Below are positions 27,182 through 42,998 of a stretch of 64,000 nt of DNA, one piece after another (the first letter of the stretch is position 1; every line of letters begins with the position of its first letter). This DNA is from a bacterium (Candidatus Blackallbacteria) CG13_big_fil_rev_8_21_14_2_50_49_14 (GTDB taxonomy: Bacteria; Cyanobacteriota; Sericytochromatia; UBA7694), in the NCBI GenBank assembly GCA_002783405.1, contig PFGG01000011.1:131434-195433 (forward strand), given 5' to 3'. The position numbers and the translations under genes are program-made. Below the pieces are notes generated by a model. That model saw only the letters and a list, made by a program, of their open reading frames with translations, was not told the origin of the DNA and did no database searches.

Positions 27182-29143
27182 TCAGTGAAAAATCAGAAAG
27201 GGTAAAAAGCCCATTGCGATCATTGGCAAAATCAAGGTAGCAAGCTTCAAGCGCTCTGAGCGGCTAAAATCAGGATATTCATCCAGATATCTTTGAGACT
27301 CTCCAAAAATGATCTTAAAAATAAACTTAAATACTGAATACACATTCAAAGTGTTTGCAATCAGAAACAAGAGCATTAAAGCCTGAGATTTTTCGGAAAT
27401 ATCTTCTAAAATAACATCAAAGATAACAAATGAAGCAAAACCAGGCGTAAAGGTGAGTAAGAGCAATATCGAGATTGCAATCATATTGATATATTTAAAG
27501 CGGTTGCCGATGCCCAAATAGGAGCGTATATCGCTTAAATCCAATCTTTGTGAAAGGTATTGAATAAAATAATCCAGAATCAACAAAGACAGCAAATTTG
27601 TGACAAAATAGATCACTGCATCAAAATGGGCCAAATCACCAAAGAAAAGAATGGCACTTGAAGAGACCAAGAAATAGCTGGTCTTAATTTTAATCAGATA
27701 ATGCGAGATCGAAGAGTGGCGCAAACTGATCACAGAAAAAAGCAAGGCGAAAATCAAAAGAAATCCGGCCAAAGAAATCGGGTCAATCCAATGCAGCCCT
27801 TCCATTTTAACCAAGCCCAATACGCCTAAAACACCAAAAGTAAAGACAAGCACCTGGTTTGTCAAAAGCTTACGTTGAATTAAAGACTGAGCAAACCCTT
27901 CAACAAGACGGTTCAATTGAGATTGGAAGTCTTTTAAAGGTTGAAGCATCAATTGCCAAATTAAGGTCAAGCCAAAATTATGGTAAACCATGCGATAGGC
28001 CCAGGTACGCGCCGGCTTTGGCAATAAGAATTCAAAATGAACACCGTGGGGATCAAACTTTTGGTAGTTCAATTTTTCAAGATGGTGGTAATGATGAATA
28101 TTGGAGGGCGTTCTGATAAATTGATAGGTTTTTAAAAGCGCGTTCGAAAGGGTATGCAGAATCACAATGGGATACCAACCCAAAGCAAATTCCATATAAA
28201 TCAACCCGACTTGAACCACGGTTGCATAGGCCAACATCGACTTGGCGTCGGTTTGAATTCTGCTTTTCAACATGGCATAAACCGCAGTGATCAAACCCAA
28301 CCCCAAAATCAAGGCATTCATACGCGGATGTGCTGCAAAAATATGCCGAAATTTCATCAAGAGGATAATTCCAGCATGAATCGAAAGCGCGCCATAAAAA
28401 ATAGCGCTGGAAGTGGTGGGGCCTTCCATGGCTCTTGGCACCCATTTTGAGAAGGGAAAAATCGCTGATTTTCCCATGGTGGCAATAATCAAGGAAACCA
28501 AGAAGAAGCTGGATACGCCATGTACATGTACATCTACTAAAAAGCCATGCTGTTCATGATGAAACGTCAGCAGGGCTAAAATCAGGAACAAATCACAAAA
28601 TTTATACACCCCTAAAACGAATAGGGAATTGCTGACCGTTTTGCGCATCCCCTGATAATAAGAAATCAGGAATACTGAAGACAGTCCCAAGAGTTCCCAT
28701 GCTATTAATACAAAATAGAAATTTGAAGTTAAAATCAAAGTATAGAGCGCAATTTGCATGAGGTAAAAATTGATAAAGAACTTATAATAACCCTCTTCAT
28801 GGGCCAGATAGTTCAAAGAAAAGCGGCTGATGACACCACTTAAAAAGACACCCATCAAAAGCAAAATACTGGCATAGCGATCAACATGCATATTCAGACT
28901 ATAGACCACCTTGGCATGTTGAAACCAGGAAAACAATTGCATATCTCTGTCACCGTTCATCCAGGTTAAGAGAGCAACGGCTATAGCACCTATAAAAAGA
29001 AGAACCTGAGCAGAAATAGCAATATAGGTTAATGTTTTTGAATAATTGGTACTGTTTTTGATGCGGGTAAAGACCGAAAAAACAAACATAAACACGGGAA
29101 TAAGAATGATAATGGAAATGCTATTTTCAAGTAATTCAGACAT
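27182..29143 (-). CDS. dabB: DabB, membrane subunit of the DAB inorganic-carbon pump (NuoL-like)
   Basis: The 653-residue polytopic protein is a NuoL/MrpA-type proton-conducting antiporter homologue. Its core has WELLGLSSVFLISYYQGMRK and FPFSKWVPRAMEGPTTSSAI, including the Glu and Lys residues used for ion transfer. It partners DabA, to which it would couple cation flow to drive cytoplasmic CO2 hydration. It overlaps dabA by 8 bases and has AAGG 6 bases before its ATG. No other NADH-dehydrogenase gene adjoins it, which separates it from complex I. It is longer than the DabB proteins I know (roughly 500-560 residues), with extra helices at the C-terminus. Confidence 0.92.
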   Translation of the reverse strand: MSELLENSISIIILIPVFMFVFSVFTRIKNSTNYSKTLTYIAISAQVLLFIGAIAVALLTWMNGDRDMQLFSWFQHAKVVYSLNMHVDRYASILLLMGVFLSGVISRFSLNYLAHEEGYYKFFINFYLMQIALYTLILTSNFYFVLIAWELLGLSSVFLISYYQGMRKTVSNSLFVLGVYKFCDLFLILALLTFHHEQHGFLVDVHVHGVSSFFLVSLIIATMGKSAIFPFSKWVPRAMEGPTTSSAIFYGALSIHAGIILLMKFRHIFAAHPRMNALILGLGLITAVYAMLKSRIQTDAKSMLAYATVVQVGLIYMEFALGWYPIVILHTLSNALLKTYQFIRTPSNIHHYHHLEKLNYQKFDPHGVHFEFLLPKPARTWAYRMVYHNFGLTLIWQLMLQPLKDFQSQLNRLVEGFAQSLIQRKLLTNQVLVFTFGVLGVLGLVKMEGLHWIDPISLAGFLLIFALLFSVISLRHSSISHYLIKIKTSYFLVSSSAILFFGDLAHFDAVIYFVTNLLSLLILDYFIQYLSQRLDLSDIRSYLGIGNRFKYINMIAISILLLLTFTPGFASFVIFDVILEDISEKSQALMLLFLIANTLNVYSVFKFIFKIIFGESQRYLDEYPDFSRSERLKLATLILPMIAMGFLPFLIFH

Positions 29144-31928
29144 ATTGACCTTCTAATATCGCAACAGGAATAAGATTTTGAGCATCTACTTTGATTTCCT
29201 GAGAAATCTGATAGGCGTTGAGTTCAGAATCAATCTCACTGGCTTTGATAAAGCTCTGGCCCTGATAAAAATAAAACTCTTTTTGTTCAAAATCAAAAAC
29301 CATTAAACGCACCCAATGGTTTTTGATGAGTCGTTTAAGTTGCAGATTGTTGGCCATAATCTCTTCAATAATGGCTGGCTTGCTTTCAATCACAATCAAA
29401 ATCCTGCGTGGGTCGTGAATTTCAACCATTTGTTTTGAAAGGCCCAAACGCAGATCGCTGGCAAAACCGCTCATCACCGCATAATTATTGGTAATATTGT
29501 GATTCAATTTAGAACCGCAGCCGTATACCTCTGGATCGACTGCACTGAAATAATATTCCAGGTTAATCCCTGCACACACCGGTACCGCAGCCCCCATAAT
29601 TCGGGAAAGAACAGAACCCTCATCATTCTCAGGGTTATAGGAACAGAGAAACGAACGCCGATCTAAAAATAGATTTTGGGTAAAACTTCTTCTGCCAATA
29701 ATGCAAAGCGCATTGGTTGCATGGTTATATTCCGGGCGCGCCTCGGTTAAATCGTTTGAACGGGTCGCAACCTTTTCAAAGGCGACCTCAGGATCCAGCT
29801 CATTGGAAATATTAAAGAACTTACGTGAACGTTCCGCAGCATTCAATTTTAAGGCCTGGGTCATTTTTTCAGTATGTTTAAGATGACGTGCTTTTTGTTC
29901 TGCGTTCAGCATCGAATCAAACCAAGAGATATTGTCCTTGCAGGTATCGTGATACCCCCCCACAAACAGGGTGGTATCTGGAATTTCAATTCCATACTTG
30001 CTTTTTAGCAAGGCACGAACTTCTGGGTGGTTGCCTATCGTCGCAAAAACTCTGCCGTTGGGACGCCCTTTGCCTCCCCCACAAGCCCCACAATTATAGG
30101 CGTATTCATGTGGATTATTGATACTGGAAGAGCCATGGCCCACCACATAAATAAACTCTGTAAAATTATCCATTAAATCAATGGTTCTCAGTAGGTTATA
30201 GACTTTTTCTGCACCTTGATCATAAGAAATCCCTTCGGCATTGCCTTGCTCATGAAAGATAAGATCAACCAAATGCTTCTGATGAAGAAATTTCTTTTTC
30301 GCACTGCGACGCAAGGCCAAATCCAGATGGGGCATAAAGACCTTGATAAAAAAGGGTATAGCGCTTAGATAACCCGTAATCACGGTAATCAGGTAGGAAA
30401 AGAACGATATTCTTGAGTGCCAGGAATAGGTATGAAAGATCTTTGCGTAGAGACGACTCATCCAAGAGGCTGTTTCAGCAGCCTCCTCAACCAGTACCTC
30501 TACTTCCCTGACTTTAAAGGTTTCTTTGATAACACCCGGACACAATTTGCGAAAGCGAACTTCATTAAAACCTTTGAAATGCATATTCATTTCAAAATGT
30601 CCTGCAACACCAAAGGTTCTACAGCGTGGATCTACTTCTTCAAGATATCTGCGCAAAGACTCTTCGCGATCATCAATGCAGGTGATATATTGAAAACTTT
30701 GACTAAGGGATTCTGATTTTGGTTTTTGATTGGTCAACGTTAACGCACTCAGACATTGATAGGCATAGGTTTTCTCAAGCGCATTCTGATAAATAATCTG
30801 ACGTCGTACCTTGGTAAAATAGGGCAAGAGACTTAAAATATTCTCTTTGTCTTGTTCTGAAGCCAACCATTGCCCCTGTTTGATCAATTGATTTTGCTTT
30901 AAAAAATGCAAAGCCAGCCAAGTCAATTCATATTGCGCTTGTTCGATCGCCAATTGGCTTTGACTTTCACGAAAATCACTTAATAGATGGGGCTCAAATT
31001 GGGGCAAAAAAGCTTTTGAAATAACGTATTCGTAAACCAGCTTGACCAGCAGAAATTCCTTGATACTGTATTGGGTATCATCTAAAATCTGTTCGGGATC
31101 ATGCTCTAACTTATTAAACAGGCTGGCCCAGCCCCGCAAACGCAAGCCCATAGAGAGAAGATAGGTTTTATGCTGCTCTGCCGGTACTGCCATTTCTCTC
31201 AAATAATAGAGAATCAGCTCATCAACACTCAGTTCTTTATGCACTGGCAGTTTAAGCTGCTCATGTATTTTTTTTGCCTGAAGATTTTCAAGCACAAGAG
31301 GAGACTTATAATTTTCTTTGAAACAATGCCAAAGCCCCTTTGACTTGTATTCATTCTTCCAATAGGTACTGCCTGGATCGACATAGGAGCTGAAAAGCTT
31401 TGCCAAAAGAGGATTCATCACATCATCAATATCTACACCGTAGCGCTGTAGAATAATTTCTTTATAGGTGGGAAAAGTAAAACTGTTTTCAGGTTCTGCA
31501 GGCAGTTCAAGCGCTTGAACTCTGGTCATGATTTCTTGTATCAGATTTTGCTCAGGCTCTTTTTTCAATCTGCGTTTGATAACATTCTTCACACTTAATT
31601 CAGGCGGATTTAAAATCAAGTTGAGAAACAAGTCAATCTTACAATGCGGTTTTAAATGGTTGTTCTGGCAAACCATCTTCAGCTCTTCTTCAAGTGTCTT
31701 TTTAGAAATTTTGCCCAAGGCAATATATTCTAGATATTTTTTTTGCTCTAAAAAGCTAAACCCTTGATAGAGCTTATTGGCCAAAACACAAGCTGTTTCA
31801 AACTCATATTCTTCAAAGGCTTCAAGGGGATTGTGATGAACAAAATGCTGCAAGGTACCCTGATGCGGCAGGTATTTACTCACCCAAGCCAAATCCTGAT
31901 CTAAATCGGAAAGTCGTTGTTCTATCAT
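29136..31928 (-). CDS. dabA: DabA, carbonic-anhydrase-like subunit of the DAB inorganic-carbon pump (DUF2309)
   Basis: The 930-residue soluble protein belongs to the UPF0753/DUF2309 family. The four zinc-site residues known from characterised DabA can be placed: C417 and D419 in T-C-I-D-D-R-E, H598 in V-G-H-G-S-S-S, and C613 in Y-N-C-G-A-C-G-G. The His-to-Cys spacing of 15 equals that of the Halothiobacillus enzyme (H524, C539). It would hydrate CO2 to bicarbonate on the inner membrane face, made vectorial by DabB. AAGG lies 7 bases before the ATG. It is followed by dabB with overlap and preceded by a SulP transporter on the same strand, with a hairpin between. Confidence 0.95.
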   Translation of the reverse strand: MIEQRLSDLDQDLAWVSKYLPHQGTLQHFVHHNPLEAFEEYEFETACVLANKLYQGFSFLEQKKYLEYIALGKISKKTLEEELKMVCQNNHLKPHCKIDLFLNLILNPPELSVKNVIKRRLKKEPEQNLIQEIMTRVQALELPAEPENSFTFPTYKEIILQRYGVDIDDVMNPLLAKLFSSYVDPGSTYWKNEYKSKGLWHCFKENYKSPLVLENLQAKKIHEQLKLPVHKELSVDELILYYLREMAVPAEQHKTYLLSMGLRLRGWASLFNKLEHDPEQILDDTQYSIKEFLLVKLVYEYVISKAFLPQFEPHLLSDFRESQSQLAIEQAQYELTWLALHFLKQNQLIKQGQWLASEQDKENILSLLPYFTKVRRQIIYQNALEKTYAYQCLSALTLTNQKPKSESLSQSFQYITCIDDREESLRRYLEEVDPRCRTFGVAGHFEMNMHFKGFNEVRFRKLCPGVIKETFKVREVEVLVEEAAETASWMSRLYAKIFHTYSWHSRISFFSYLITVITGYLSAIPFFIKVFMPHLDLALRRSAKKKFLHQKHLVDLIFHEQGNAEGISYDQGAEKVYNLLRTIDLMDNFTEFIYVVGHGSSSINNPHEYAYNCGACGGGKGRPNGRVFATIGNHPEVRALLKSKYGIEIPDTTLFVGGYHDTCKDNISWFDSMLNAEQKARHLKHTEKMTQALKLNAAERSRKFFNISNELDPEVAFEKVATRSNDLTEARPEYNHATNALCIIGRRSFTQNLFLDRRSFLCSYNPENDEGSVLSRIMGAAVPVCAGINLEYYFSAVDPEVYGCGSKLNHNITNNYAVMSGFASDLRLGLSKQMVEIHDPRRILIVIESKPAIIEEIMANNLQLKRLIKNHWVRLMVFDFEQKEFYFYQGQSFIKASEIDSELNAYQISQEIKVDAQNLIPVAILEGQYV

Positions 31929-32023: not shown

Positions 32024-33655
32024 CTAAACGGGTAAAACTTCGCGCTTCCTTGAAGCCAAAGGGTGTTCAGAAATTGACTTGTGTTGATCCAGGCCATTAA
32101 TTTCGCAAATCCCCCCTTCACGTTTATAATCCTTCGCATAATGATGAACATATTCCATAAAGGAATGGTCAATCAGATAAGATTTTGAAAAATCAAATAT
32201 AACCGTTTTGCCAGCAGGCAAAGACTCAAGCTCACTCTTCAGACCAATTAAATTTGAGAAAACAGCAGAACTCTCAACCGTTACCAAATAATGGCCCGCT
32301 TCAGTTTCATGTACGTGAAACTGAAGTTTGAACAAATCTTTAAATGCCACCCCCCTGTAAGCGTGAATGATCAGTTTCAAAATAATCCCACAAGCCACGC
32401 CAATCAAGAGATCGGTGGCAAGTACACAGACAATCGTGGTCACAAAGATAGCCAATTGTTCTGGGCCCGTTTTATAGGTATGAATAAACTCCTTGGGAGA
32501 AGCCAGACGAAAACCTGTAAAGACAAGCAAAGCAGCAAGAGAGGCTAAGGGAATCTGATGAATCAGCCCAGGAGCTGCCGCTACAAAGAGCAACATAAAT
32601 CCGCCATGAAAAAAGTTAGCCCAACGGGTACGGGCCCCGTTATTGATATTCGCAGAGGAACGGACAATTTCAGCAATCATGGGCAAACCACCCAATAGAC
32701 CTGAAATCGTTGAACCTACTCCCACCGCAAAGATATCTTTATTCAGATTGGCACGGCGGCCATAGACATCCAGCTTATCAACCGCCAAAGCTGAAAGTAA
32801 ACTTTCCAAGCTGGCAATCAAAGCAATGCTGATAACAACCGTCCAGAAAGCACCCGTTGCGAAGTGTGAGAAGTCAGGAAAAACGATTCCTTTGACCACA
32901 CTGCCCGGCAGATTAATCAGATATTGAGGGCCGATTTCATGTTCATGTCCCCAAAGGGTGGACATATGGGTTTTATCCAGATGAAAAACATGGCCTAAAA
33001 CAATGCCTACCAAAACAACCACCAAAGGTCCAGGGATTTTCTTCAAGGCTTGAATCGGCATAAAAGCCCACAAAACCGTAACGGCCAGACAGATCAGACC
33101 AATAATTGCAATTTCACCATTGGCATGCATTAAACTGTGAGGAATTTCAGCTATCACCTCAAGGGTTTCCTTGGTATGGGGTTTCACACCCAAAACAGTG
33201 TGAGCCTGTTTCGCCATGATGATAATACCAATTGCAGCTAACATGCCATGTACCGCAGGTGCAGGGAAATAGGCACTGAGCTTACCAGCTTTTAAAAGCC
33301 CAAAGGCCATTTGAATAATACCTGCAACAACGATCGCCGCAAGTGTTAAGCGGTAACCCAAGGCCATATTTCCTTGTCCTAAAGTCTCGACCCCTCCTAC
33401 AATAATCACGATCAAGCCTGCAGCAGGACCATTAATCGTGACATAGGAGCCACTGATCATTGAGACAACCAGCCCCCCCACAATAGCTGAAATAATCCCA
33501 GCCATGGGAGGCATGCCTGAGGCAAGGGCAATCCCAAGCGAAAGAGGCAAAGCGATTAAAAAGATCTGAAAACCAGAACTGAGGTCGAAACGCAAGTTTT
33601 CTTTTAGACCGGCCAACCCGTCTTTGGGGAGAGTTGGTTGAGGTAAAACAGACAT
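32024..33655 (-). CDS. SulP family anion (putative bicarbonate) transporter
   Basis: The 543-residue protein has about 11-12 membrane helices with the SulP signatures (FQIFLIALPLSLGIALASGM, S-G-S-Y-V-T-I-N-G-P-A-A-G) and a C-terminal STAS domain from about residue 425 (VIFDFSKSYLIDHSFMEYVH). SulP proteins import sulfate, bicarbonate or other anions; the neighbouring dabA-dabB points to bicarbonate. ATG at 33655 has AAGGAG about 12 bases upstream; the longer TTG frame would cover that site. It is a paralogue of the transporter at 43090. Tandem 11-bp repeats and a TATTCT hexamer lie about 145-180 bases upstream. Confidence 0.9.
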   Translation of the reverse strand: MSVLPQPTLPKDGLAGLKENLRFDLSSGFQIFLIALPLSLGIALASGMPPMAGIISAIVGGLVVSMISGSYVTINGPAAGLIVIIVGGVETLGQGNMALGYRLTLAAIVVAGIIQMAFGLLKAGKLSAYFPAPAVHGMLAAIGIIIMAKQAHTVLGVKPHTKETLEVIAEIPHSLMHANGEIAIIGLICLAVTVLWAFMPIQALKKIPGPLVVVLVGIVLGHVFHLDKTHMSTLWGHEHEIGPQYLINLPGSVVKGIVFPDFSHFATGAFWTVVISIALIASLESLLSALAVDKLDVYGRRANLNKDIFAVGVGSTISGLLGGLPMIAEIVRSSANINNGARTRWANFFHGGFMLLFVAAAPGLIHQIPLASLAALLVFTGFRLASPKEFIHTYKTGPEQLAIFVTTIVCVLATDLLIGVACGIILKLIIHAYRGVAFKDLFKLQFHVHETEAGHYLVTVESSAVFSNLIGLKSELESLPAGKTVIFDFSKSYLIDHSFMEYVHHYAKDYKREGGICEINGLDQHKSISEHPLASRKREVLPV

Positions 33656-34123
33656 AGTGCTGTTAAACTCCTTTCTCGGATACAAAATTACTGCAAAGTC
33701 GAATTTTTTATGTCAAACACAGAAATCCATAAACACACAAAAAATAAATTCGTCTTGCCGCATGTTTAAAATTTTGGCATACCGAAAAAATTGAAGGGTA
33801 AGAATACCATGAATCTTTGCTGAGAGTTTGCTGAGAATCACAAGATCGGGGAAGAATCAATAAACAATTGAAATTTAAACGTTATAAATCTATATTAATC
33901 GTATGTTTAATACAAATACACAACCATACATTAATATTATTGAATGTATTAATAGCCAATCTGAGCGTTCAGAAAGAAACCTGTAGTGTTTCACTGCGAA
34001 ATGTATGTGAAATAGATACCGTGAGCAAATATTCTAAATCAATAATTTTTAAATAAAATAAGGAAATTCACTAAAATTCAGCAAGATTTGCACTGTTAAT
34101 CATCAGCAAAACATAACGAAATT
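33656..34123. other. Long AT-rich intergenic region upstream of sulP-dabAB
   Basis: This 468-base gap has no credible gene. It holds the 11-bp tandem repeats and -10 of sulP, a leader of about 140 bases, and an inverted repeat (33926-33932 with 33943-33949) farther upstream. The rest (about 33850-34123) is strikingly AT-rich, and the TTAAT core recurs several times there. Confidence 0.6.
33801..33837 (-). promoter_or_regulatory. Two tandem 11-bp repeats and -10 element of sulP-dabA-dabB
   Basis: On the minus strand two adjacent units, TTCTCAGCAAA and CTCTCAGCAAA (33827-33837 and 33816-33826), are followed after about 9 bases by TATTCT (33801-33806). Two direct repeats with 11-bp period just upstream of a -10 is the arrangement of OmpR/PhoB-type activator sites. 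The same motif lies upstream of 39262. Confidence 0.6.
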
Positions 34124-39179: not shown

Positions 39180-39238
39180 GAGACAAGAGAAGGGTTGACT
39201 TGTTTCAAAGCCTGCTACACAAGGAAAGATCTTGTCTC
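39180..39238 (+). other. Possible structured leader before the HyfC-like gene
   Basis: The gap 38960-39261 (302 bases) has no gene. Besides the tandem repeats it holds a 9-bp inverted repeat, GAGACAAGA (39180-39188) and TCTTGTCTC (39230-39238), enclosing 41 bases, shortly before the ribosome-binding site AGGAG. It could fold in the mRNA leader. Confidence 0.35.
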
Positions 39239-39261
39239 TTGGGCTCAGGAGTCATTTCAGC

Positions 39262-40242
39262 ATGTATTTGATAAACGGTCTGAATATCCTCTTGCAGGCA
39301 GGTTTTGTTTTAGCTTTATCCCCGATCTTGGAAGATCTCCTTCAAAAAATGAAAGCCAGTTTCCAAGGAACCCCCAGTCCTCCACTTTTCAAAAGCTATC
39401 GAGAATTATTTCATTTATTGTCTCAGTCTGTTGAGCCCTTGCATACGAATTCACAAATCAGGCAATTTACACCCCTTGTGCTTTTTTCTACAGCGCTTTA
39501 TAGCAGCTTGATGGTTCCCACTTTTTTAAGCAAAGCGCCGATCAGCCATTTGGGAGGCCTCTTATTTCTCGTTGCTTTACTGATTCTCAATCGTTTCTTT
39601 TTGGTTTCAAGTCTCGCGCAGCAAACCCAGATACAAAGCTTTCTCTTAAAGCCATCACCAGAGGTATTTCTGCTGAGAATTACTGAATTCATTTTTCTCG
39701 CGACCTTGCTCAACCTTGCCCTTTTCTCTGGAACGATGGACTTAAACGGAATCGTCAGCTGGCACCAGGCGCATTCAGAATTTTTAATTCAGCCCCTGAA
39801 CCTATTGGCAATTCTCGCTTTGCTGATCACAACCATTGCTGAAATGGATAGAATTCCGATTGGGCTTTCAGAATCCACCTCCCAGCGCCAGGCTCCCCAT
39901 GAATATTTACAGGAAATGTATACAGGCCCCCAATTGGGCATTATTTATTGGTCCCACTGGATTAAAAACTTAATGCTTCTCTCTCTCTTGGTCAGTTTTG
40001 TCTTGCCATGGGGAATCAGCAATCAACACGACAGTCTCAGCCTCTTTCTCAGTTTTCTGATATATTTCGGAAAATTACTGATGATGTGTCTGCTGATAGA
40101 GAGTCTAGAAATCTTAATTCGAAAATTCAAGCTATTTAGATTTACAAAAATTTTAAGTAGTGCCTTGCTCATGACTCTCTGTTGTATCGTGACCTATTTA
40201 CAAAGCCACCCACCTTTGCCCATGAAAGTATTTTTACCTTAA
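39262..40242 (+). CDS. Orphan HyfC/NuoH-like membrane subunit
   Basis: ATG at 39262 with AGGAG upstream gives 326 residues and about eight membrane helices. It matches the NuoH/HyfC/HycD family: the first loop LQKMKASFQGTPSPPLFKSY corresponds to the quinone-site loop, and the conserved segment I-A-E-M-D-R-I-P-I and H-E-Y-L-Q-E-M-Y-T-G-P corresponds to the E-R-x-P and leucine-glutamate-rich part of HyfC. Such subunits normally sit at the heel of complex I or membrane hydrogenases. Here no hydrogenase or other nuo gene accompanies it; the only related membrane subunit in the window is DabB. It is cotranscribed with a porin. Confidence 0.85.
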   Translation: MYLINGLNILLQAGFVLALSPILEDLLQKMKASFQGTPSPPLFKSYRELFHLLSQSVEPLHTNSQIRQFTPLVLFSTALYSSLMVPTFLSKAPISHLGGLLFLVALLILNRFFLVSSLAQQTQIQSFLLKPSPEVFLLRITEFIFLATLLNLALFSGTMDLNGIVSWHQAHSEFLIQPLNLLAILALLITTIAEMDRIPIGLSESTSQRQAPHEYLQEMYTGPQLGIIYWSHWIKNLMLLSLLVSFVLPWGISNQHDSLSLFLSFLIYFGKLLMMCLLIESLEILIRKFKLFRFTKILSSALLMTLCCIVTYLQSHPPLPMKVFLP

Positions 40243-40276: not shown

Positions 40277-41680
40277 ATGAAAATTCCAAAGCAAATAAAG
40301 CGCAAAAGACACCCCATCACATTCAAAACACTTTCATTGCTGCTTATGCCCCTCTTGTATCAATGCCTTTCATACCCGGCCCATGCAGAACTCTCTCGCC
40401 CGGATGAAAATTCTACCCCTCCCGGCATCGATCGCACATTTTTATCTTTGGATGGATTTTCATTTCAAGCACCGGCTTTGAATGCCGACTTACCAGCCAT
40501 GAGCAACCCTCAAAATCTACCCATCCATCAATCTGAAAGTTTAAACAATGCCTGGGGAATTGAAACAAGTGGTTTTGTTCGCTTTGACGCGTTTTACGAT
40601 ACACGTCAAACGGTGGGCGGTCGCGAAGGCTTAATCAACCTCTATCCTGCAGCCGTCAAAACCAACAGTTCTGGCAAAGATGAAAACAGTGATCCCATGC
40701 TTAATTTTCTTTCGATTTTCACACGGGGAGCCATTAAAATAAACTCGCCAGAGGTCTGGGGAGCCAAAGTTTCAGGATTGGTTGAAGCAGATTTTTTTGG
40801 TCATTTAAACAGCACGATCAGCAATTTGCGCCTGCGCCATGCCTATATGAAAATGAAATGGGACAGTGCCGAACTTTTACTTGGCCAGTATTGGGATCCG
40901 CTTACCAATATCGATGTTTTTCCTGGCATCATAGCGGTGGGGGCCGGGCGTCCGGTTCAACCCTTTTCCAGAAACCCCATGATTCAAGTCAAATACAATC
41001 CCTGGCAAGCCTTTCAATTGACCGGCGCCCTATCAATGCAAAGGGATGCCTTTTCTGAAACCGATGGAAATGCCTTACAAGAGCGTTCAGGCCTCCCTGC
41101 AGCAACCTTAAACGCAGCCTATCACTTCGGTCAAGGACAAATTGGGGCTGGCATTCATGGCAAAGCAATTCGTCCAGCAGCAGGGGCCGAAAATCTTTAT
41201 TCTGGTGCGGGACAAATTTTTGCAAAGCTTAAACCGTTTGATAAATTCACATTACAAGCCAAAGCGGTGATGGGAACGGATATGGCTGATCACCAAATGG
41301 TCGGAGGCTATGCCCTTACCAAACAAAACAGCTATGTAAACCTGGCAACAGTCGCCACTTGGCTCGATCTTGATTATTATCTCAACGATTTAATTCAGTT
41401 GGGTCTGTATGGGGGGTACACCTCAAATTTAGGTACCTTGGGCACCCAGGCCGAAGCAGACAAGTTCTTTGCCCGCGATCCCAACCAAGCCCATTCATTT
41501 CATATCATGCCCCGCATCACGCTTCATCCCACAAAACAACTGCAGTTTTCACTCGAAGCTGACTGGGGGCGCGCATTGTACGCCAGCACTTATTCAGCCA
41601 GCCTGCAACCCCAAGTCCAATCAAGTGATGCCTGGGTGGATAACTTCAGAATTGGATTCACATCCATGCTGAAATTCTAA
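40277..41680 (+). CDS. Outer-membrane porin (DcaP-like)
   Basis: The 467-residue protein has a signal peptide ending Y-P-A-H-A, then a linker and a beta-barrel with alternating strands (TSGFVRFDAFYDTRQTVGG, RLRHAYMKMKWDSAELLLGQ). It ends I-G-F-T-S-M-L-K-F with the terminal Phe used for outer-membrane assembly. The strand pattern recalls DcaP-type trimeric porins. It lies 34 bases downstream of the HyfC-like gene with AAGGA before the ATG, and so probably shares the repeat-controlled promoter. Diffusion of small anions such as bicarbonate is a possible role given the neighbours. Confidence 0.85.
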   Translation: MKIPKQIKRKRHPITFKTLSLLLMPLLYQCLSYPAHAELSRPDENSTPPGIDRTFLSLDGFSFQAPALNADLPAMSNPQNLPIHQSESLNNAWGIETSGFVRFDAFYDTRQTVGGREGLINLYPAAVKTNSSGKDENSDPMLNFLSIFTRGAIKINSPEVWGAKVSGLVEADFFGHLNSTISNLRLRHAYMKMKWDSAELLLGQYWDPLTNIDVFPGIIAVGAGRPVQPFSRNPMIQVKYNPWQAFQLTGALSMQRDAFSETDGNALQERSGLPAATLNAAYHFGQGQIGAGIHGKAIRPAAGAENLYSGAGQIFAKLKPFDKFTLQAKAVMGTDMADHQMVGGYALTKQNSYVNLATVATWLDLDYYLNDLIQLGLYGGYTSNLGTLGTQAEADKFFARDPNQAHSFHIMPRITLHPTKQLQFSLEADWGRALYASTYSASLQPQVQSSDAWVDNFRIGFTSMLKF

Positions 41681-41723: not shown

Positions 41724-42941
41724 TTAAGCTGCATAGAGACGCTCATGCTCAAGTAACATCAGCTCATAGTCAGCAAACTGAAGCAAAGATTTTTCTCTTT
41801 GTTCCAGTTCGCGGTGACTGATTGAAATCAGTTCAACGCCAAAATGCTCAGTAATAAAGGACATAATCGGATCCCGTTTTATTTTTTGGATAATCCGTTG
41901 CGTTTGCTCCTGATCATTCCCCATCACAAGTTGATCTGTCAGGCCCAAAAACTTCACACCATAAAAATATCCCGCAATCGTATAGGGACCAAAGGGAATC
42001 ATCGGCATATCAAATGAATTGCCACGTAATTTAAAAATCGTATTGGAGATCGTCTGATTGGGTTTCAAACCTTTGTATTCAAGATAATACTGCTTGGCCA
42101 ATAAGCGTGACGAAAGATAGGGAGAGGTGCAAATCAAACCCGCCAACGGTTTTTGCGTAGAAGCTTGGGCCATGGCCAAATCACCGGTTAAAGATTCGCG
42201 TTTTGCTTTTTCTCTTAAGCGCAGATGAAAATCATGCCAGAAAGGTACTTCTGGCTCTCCCCCATCGACACGTATCAAAGCATGCTGTTGGTAATCTTTA
42301 ATATTGGCAGTAATTTGAATATTCAAATTTTTAAGCGTCGCATCATGTCGGGCGGCATGTTCGAGGGCTGCTCTTTGGGTACGGGGATGGGTTCTTAAGT
42401 CATCAATACTGCGCACCCAGTCGCCAGCAAAATAACCATTAAAAGCATAGACTTCCCGTAAAAGCACACGAATATCCTGCTCATGGCGCAAGGTGATATG
42501 ACCTTGGCCTGGCAAAGCAAATCTAGGCTCCTGTTCGAGCAGAAGTTTTTCTAATTCCAGTGCAACTTTGGTGGCTCCCAACATGCCACAATTGAGAGAA
42601 GATCCCTCCTTTATCGCTACTTCATGGGTCAGACAGGCAAAATCTTCACTGCATTCTCCCACCAACTCACCGTGCGCCTGTACATGCACAAAATAGGAAT
42701 GGGGAATCCCATCTTCTGAAAGACGCTGGTGCTGCTCAAAAATATCCTTGAGATCGGTAATCACATCGGGCGTCACAAAAGATCCCGGAGTACGGATTTT
42801 ATGAAATTCAATCTGAATGCCCTTTGCTTCATATTCTTTAATGGTTTCAATCAAAGCTTGAATATAGATACGACTGAGATCGCGTGCATCGGCACAGCCC
42901 ACAAGAATATGAACTTGCTTTTCTTTATAGTTTCTCTTCAT
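41724..42941 (-). CDS. Divergent beta-carbonic-anhydrase-like protein with extra C-terminal domain
   Basis: The 405-residue protein has an N-terminal part (1-135) with the marks of beta-carbonic anhydrase in the right order: I-L-V-G-C16-A-D18-A-R20 (the CxDxR zinc and Asp/Arg dyad), I-R50-T-P-G-S-F-V-T (as R-N-A-G-N-x-V), V-H-V-Q-A-H90-G-E and N-C118-G-M-L-G-A-T-K-V-A-L (as C-G-G-M-x-A-A-L). In known enzymes the His and second Cys are only 2 residues apart; here about 27 residues with C97, C103 and H106 are inserted. Residues 140-405 match nothing I know. It is divergent from a sulP gene. Hydration of CO2 or a sensing role is inferred. No Shine-Dalgarno is near the ATG. Confidence 0.6.
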   Translation of the reverse strand: MKRNYKEKQVHILVGCADARDLSRIYIQALIETIKEYEAKGIQIEFHKIRTPGSFVTPDVITDLKDIFEQHQRLSEDGIPHSYFVHVQAHGELVGECSEDFACLTHEVAIKEGSSLNCGMLGATKVALELEKLLLEQEPRFALPGQGHITLRHEQDIRVLLREVYAFNGYFAGDWVRSIDDLRTHPRTQRAALEHAARHDATLKNLNIQITANIKDYQQHALIRVDGGEPEVPFWHDFHLRLREKAKRESLTGDLAMAQASTQKPLAGLICTSPYLSSRLLAKQYYLEYKGLKPNQTISNTIFKLRGNSFDMPMIPFGPYTIAGYFYGVKFLGLTDQLVMGNDQEQTQRIIQKIKRDPIMSFITEHFGVELISISHRELEQREKSLLQFADYELMLLEHERLYAA

Positions 42942-42964: not shown

Positions 42965-42998
42965 GATTCATATATTATTTAATTTTAATATATGAATC
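42965..42998. promoter_or_regulatory. 13-bp perfect inverted repeat in divergent promoter region
   Basis: GATTCATATATTA (42965-42977) and TAATATATGAATC (42986-42998) are exact inverted copies separated by 8 bases, between the carbonic-anhydrase-like gene and sulP. A dimeric-repressor operator is a natural reading. Confidence 0.6.

Follow-up and report, generated by a model that had tools for sequence, protein, structure and literature searches.

The 64,000-nucleotide stretch of DNA analysed here (hereafter the window), which belongs to the genome of a non-photosynthetic relative of cyanobacteria, raises the question of what is encoded by a gene that lies divergent from a sulP transporter gene and whose 405-residue product, P0001, carries motifs of a β-carbonic anhydrase (β-CA) around a split pair of putative zinc ligands. 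A preliminary description of the sequence had offered three answers (that is, a new carbonic anhydrase (CA) subclass, a CO2/bicarbonate sensor or a non-CA zinc enzyme), of which the first is best supported by our analysis and the others less so. We suggest that P0001, which seems to lack both a signal peptide and transmembrane segments (the highest Kyte-Doolittle mean over 19 residues is 0.96), is probably a cytoplasmic, zinc-dependent CA of a new, divergent β-CA-like pseudo-dimer type.

Conserved residues of the putative zinc site

All of the residues first singled out in P0001 (C16/D18/R20, R50-T-P-G53, H90, C97, C103, H106 and C118-G119) are present at the positions claimed for them, with 27 residues separating H90 from C118 (Table 1). 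Two overlapping sets of genomes from the phylum (386 and 292) yielded relatives in two other genomes only, both of the same bacterial class (18 genomes): G029 (68% identity; the gene is split across two contigs at a contig break) and G050 (48% identity). All three members share C16, D18, R20, R50, G53, H90, G91, C118 and G119, and likewise H47, H86 and H106. C97 and C103, once considered as possible ligands, are missing from the 48%-identical relative and do not hold their positions in the other, and on account of this non-conservation across the family we ruled them out as unlikely zinc ligands. Because 100 of the 240 positions compared in the N-terminal part of the protein (lobe I, see below) are invariant, such conservation by itself carries modest weight. 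The ordered pattern C.D.R...R..G...H(2-40)CG is carried by 4 of 20,000 shuffles of P0001 and, among 179 long open reading frames from the window and related loci, by P0001, its two relatives and one canonical β-CA only. No relatives were found in phages, plasmids or viral contigs; as phyla other than this one were reached only by a single, insensitive pattern scan of genome contigs, the limitation of the family to one class may be a sampling effect.

Two probable β-CA-like lobes in one chain

The main evidence comes from profile-profile comparison (hhalign) of the family with a β-CA profile built from 38 sequences of the phylum, with column permutations as controls. Lobe I aligns in two collinear pieces, residues 12-62 on CSDSR...RNAG and residues 117-188 on CG...LRTHP, the boundaries of which bracket the 27-residue insert; none of 700 permutations (maximum 41.0) equalled their combined score of 50.7, and the reversed profile scored 14.3. 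This unsupervised alignment places C16 and C118 on the two zinc cysteines and, together with the family-wide invariance, bears out the order of β-CA motifs (C16/D18/R20, R50, H90, C118) proposed in the preliminary description. As a yardstick, the same method scores canonical β-CA against LCIB, for which a β-CA fold has been reported, at 22.5, so that, by profile score, the distance from lobe I to β-CA is no greater than that from LCIB.

For the remainder of the chain, about 270 residues, no known fold had been recognised, a description that needs slight amending: residues 117-188 continue the alignment to β-CA as far as the LRTHP segment, and residues 297-346 align to it a second time, IFKLRG...LGLTDQLVMGND falling on FVIRNAG...LGVKDIIVCGHS (FxxRNAGN...LGVKDIIVCGHS). 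The C-terminal part (about residues 258-385), rather than being a domain of novel kind, is thus best read from its sequence as a second, degenerate β-CA lobe. Its single score of 24.4 was attained by 4 of 700 permutations, and its zinc-His position is occupied by Asn/Gln (Asn/Gln-Asp), which makes a canonical site in lobe II impossible. Profile similarity to β-CA is therefore strong for lobe I and weaker for lobe II. The lobe boundaries were drawn with the sequence and an initial full-length alignment already in view; when full-length P0001 served as the query, 5 of 150 permutations scored at least as high as the best alignment. In hmmsearch with the β-CA profile, single family members scored 1.5-4.4 bits, which is not significant alone and overlaps the best shuffles, and the G050 relative ranked immediately below the true CAs among 1183 targets.

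Searches of Pfam, NCBIfam and PDB sequences with P0001 returned nothing relevant. Matches to Mn superoxide dismutase (phmmer, residues 253-296; E of 0.11 or worse) were judged to be chance, a TruB-C_2 match in one family member (E = 0.17) was dismissed, and a weak additional alignment that sets C271 near the first zinc Cys is one residue off and was not used as evidence.

Comparison with known β-CA-fold families

At the level of sequence, the plan of P0001 (that is, an intact lobe I, a split His...Cys pair and a degenerate lobe II) is like that of CsoSCA, in which C173, H242 and C253 of a pseudo-dimer bind a single zinc and the C-terminal domain is defunct (PMC12646314, PMC11086599). The His and Cys ligands, putative in P0001, are split in both, by 10 residues in CsoSCA (H242/C253) and 27 in P0001. 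Unlike CsoSCA, P0001 has no N-terminal helical domain and its host class has no RuBisCO, and a 12-sequence CsoSCA profile gave no score above shuffles. DabA offers a second parallel, as DabA2 has two β-CA-like domains and one zinc on C351, H524 and C539 (PMC13144422): P0001 shares with DabA two apparent β-CA-like domains, a single putative C2H zinc site with an Asp-Arg dyad, an HG...CG motif and a DabAB/SulP context, and its predicted Cys2His set would run in the same order with H and C far apart (H-x14-C in DabA). However, DabA proteins have about 800-1000 residues, a 280-residue N-terminal domain and a membrane finger, whereas P0001 has 405 residues and no transmembrane segment, and PF10070 does not match P0001 while a true DabA is encoded in the same window. 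Like P0001, LCIB/LCIC proteins carry a long stretch between candidate ligands (about 23 residues, in PH and HACG), but LCIB is a single domain with CRDE where P0001 has CADAR; PF18599 does not match P0001, and its profile score lies within the permutations. Membership in DabA, CsoSCA or LCIB was thus ruled out by profile comparison. With canonical β-CAs, P0001 shares CxDxR, RxxG, the LRTHP segment and the same genomic stretch in G016 (see below), yet it lacks a PF00484 match (E 10), has H-x27-C instead of H-x2-C and carries a probable tandem degenerate second lobe.

Given the lack of a helical N-terminal domain, of a membrane segment and of a sequence match, we liken P0001 to DabA and CsoSCA and do not place it in either; by this analogy it can be described as a protein that would work like a one-site pseudo-dimeric β-CA and that belongs to none of the CsoSCA, DabA, LCIB or canonical families. 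Both features, a single zinc in a pseudo-dimer and separated H and C ligands, are already known from CsoSCA (H-x10-C) and DabA (H-x14-C).

Genomic context

The pairing with SulP that had been pointed out initially holds and extends further, the whole neighbourhood being a DabAB/SulP inorganic-carbon locus (Table 1). The perfect inverted repeat between the divergent P0001 and sulP2 genes, the exact sequence of which occurs nowhere else in the genome, is a candidate shared operator. In G029, the relative of P0001 is convergent with dabB within a sulP-dabA-dabB cluster.

Table 1. Position and basis of assignment of P0001, its parts and neighbouring features in the window
Feature	Position	Strand	Basis
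β-CA-like protein P0001 (405 residues)	41724-42941	-	open reading frame, start 42941
Lobe I (residues 1-245), motif set intact	42207-42941	-	hhalign to β-CA profile
First zinc Cys (putative) and Asp-Arg dyad, C16-A-D18-A-R20	42882-42896	-	invariant in three family members; aligned to CSDSR
R50-T-P-G53, equivalent of β-CA RNAGN strand end	42783-42794	-	invariance and profile alignment
H90, proposed zinc His, strand end (VHVQAHG)	42672-42674	-	invariant; placed by motif, not alignment
27-residue insert between putative zinc His and Cys (residues 91-117)	42591-42671	-	H106 invariant; C97/C103 not conserved
Second zinc Cys (putative), C118-G119	42585-42590	-	invariant; aligned to CG of H-x2-C-G
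L182-R-T-H-P186, corresponding to β-CA LRTHP segment	42384-42398	-	profile alignment
Lobe II (residues 258-385), probable degenerate β-CA repeat	41787-42170	-	hhalign, residues 297-346
Perfect 13-bp inverted repeat, 8-bp spacer	42965-42998		between divergent P0001 and sulP2 genes
SulP2, putative bicarbonate transporter, divergent from P0001 gene	43018-44751	+	PF00916, E = 2.7e-59
Pirin, flank common to same-genus locus L033	44818-45555	-	locus comparison
SulP1	32024-33685	-	profile search
DabA, zinc residues CIDDR and H-x14-C	29136-31928	-	PF10070, E = 2.6e-191
DabB	27182-29143	-	Proton_antipo_M

A genome of the same genus without P0001, G016, encodes a canonical cytoplasmic β-CA (PF00484, E = 1.7e-47) in the stretch that runs from pirin to a response regulator. 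In G016 this stretch holds the canonical β-CA, a porin, dabB, dabA and sulP1; in the window it holds sulP2, the P0001 gene, a porin-like gene and a hydrogenase-type membrane protein, with dabAB-sulP1 lying beyond the two-component genes. As the porins of the two loci belong to different families, the sequences point to a replacement of the β-CA by P0001 in a rearranged locus, not to strict one-to-one synteny.

All three genomes with the P0001 family have DabA, which is present in 7 of the 18 class members. Their classical CAs all look exported, to judge by eye from the leaders: that of the window's genome is a β-CA with a signal peptide, and those of G029 and G050 are alpha-CAs with lipoprotein-like leaders. 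CsoSCA and LCIB families were not found in these three genomes (gamma-CAs were not searched), and RuBisCO was not found in the 18 genomes of the class. Over three genomes, one of them 83% complete (G029) and another with 9% contamination (G050), this co-occurrence pattern is suggestive only. Separately, a genome of the same family, G035, encodes an LCIB-type β-CA (L082, 1390-2142; PF18599, E = 3.2e-55), an apparent further replacement of a cytoplasmic CA in the class; PF00484, DabA and the P0001 family were not found in G035 (73% complete).

Proposed function and alternatives

We propose that the two β-CA-like lobes of a single P0001 chain form an internal pseudo-dimer. Lobe I would hold one zinc through C16, H90 and C118, with a zinc-bound water positioned by the D18-R20 dyad, and lobe II, having lost its zinc ligands, would serve as the structural partner subunit, while the 27-residue excursion between H90 and C118 may form a lid or docking loop above the site. 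P0001 would then interconvert CO2 and HCO3- beside the DabAB and SulP uptake systems, and the bicarbonate would feed bicarbonate-dependent carboxylases in a bacterium without RuBisCO. We infer the fold, zinc binding, cytoplasmic role and role of the insert from sequence, and catalysis in the same way, as comparable β-CA-like sites can be silent or gated, to judge by LCIB homologues and DabA2.

Several observations weigh against this proposal. P0001 has no family-level hidden Markov model match even at E 10, and the family has three known members, too few for a deep alignment: AlphaFold gave low predicted local distance difference test values (32.7 from one sequence and 42.8 from four rows), and the models are too poor for judging zinc geometry. 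No β-CA was among the best 50 Foldseek matches listed for the model with the value of 42.8; the matches that did appear (lumazine synthase and other Rossmann-like fragments; E of 0.03 or worse) were treated as meaningless. The H-x2-C motif is broken and H90 falls in the unaligned gap of lobe I, so that its assignment as a ligand is by motif only, and direct comparison of lobe I with lobe II gave no match. The G050 relative stands outside any carbon locus, unlinked to sulP or dab genes. Finally, three LCIB homologues with a β-CA fold and zinc motif showed no CA activity, and purified DabA2 keeps a β-CA-like site and has no spontaneous CO2 hydration (PMC13144422).

These last two precedents also favour the foremost alternative, which we nevertheless consider unlikely: P0001 may be a β-CA-fold binder of CO2 or bicarbonate and not a free-running enzyme. 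In that role it might serve as a sensor, as a barrier or as an accessory subunit that functions only once docked to SulP2 or DabAB. Access to the putative zinc site could be gated by the large insert next to it, and a 34-bp palindrome lies between the gene and the divergently transcribed sulP; yet P0001 retains the full C-x-D-x-R dyad and zinc set, occupies a stretch that in a relative holds an ordinary β-CA and has no transmembrane segment or known regulatory domain, and the G050 gene is unlinked to the transporters. A bolder conjecture, to which we give rather little credence, is that P0001 represents a separate pseudo-dimeric β-CA lineage beside CsoSCA and DabA whose insert links the binding of CO2/bicarbonate to the SulP or DabAB transporters nearby, making it a gated or energy-coupled enzyme or a bicarbonate sensor and not a free CA. 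That P0001 has an unrelated fold, with or without zinc, its motif order having arisen by chance, would fit the lack of a model-level match and of a confident structure, but seems distinctly improbable against the two collinear alignments in lobe I (0/700 permutations) and the further one in lobe II (4/700), the rarity of the motif pattern in shuffles, the invariance of its residues and the replacement of a β-CA in the related locus. Carbonyl sulfide (COS) and carbon disulfide (CS2) hydrolases are members of the β-CA family with the same zinc site, and P0001 could be a hydrolase of such a small molecule, but as the neighbouring genes indicate inorganic carbon and not sulfur compounds, we regard this as very improbable.

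If P0001 is indeed a CA of the proposed type, the combination of a single zinc site in a pseudo-dimer with separated His...Cys ligands would occur in a third β-CA-like family, beside the carboxysomal enzyme and DabA, which would suggest that this architecture has been reused for CAs linked to inorganic-carbon handling. In some non-photosynthetic cyanobacterial relatives, the cytoplasmic CA that seemed to be missing would then be accounted for, by an enzyme wholly missed by the annotation libraries searched.

Other features of the loci

Convergent with the P0001 gene is a gene for a predicted outer-membrane porin-like protein (40277-41680, + strand) that has no Pfam match. Next to it, a membrane protein (39232-40242, + strand), also lacking a Pfam match, resembles formate hydrogenlyase subunit 4 (PDB 7z0s_D, E = 4.5e-19); it stands alone, with no other hydrogenase genes recognised nearby, and is possibly a further membrane subunit tied to the DabAB locus. 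In G029 (L034/L042, contigs C277 and C25), nuoC-like and nuoD-like genes lie beyond the contig break in the P0001 relative. The genome of the window has a second complete dabA-dabB pair (L038, 8019-12733, contig C74) with an ArsR-like regulator gene upstream, and G016 (L041) has a similar arrangement.
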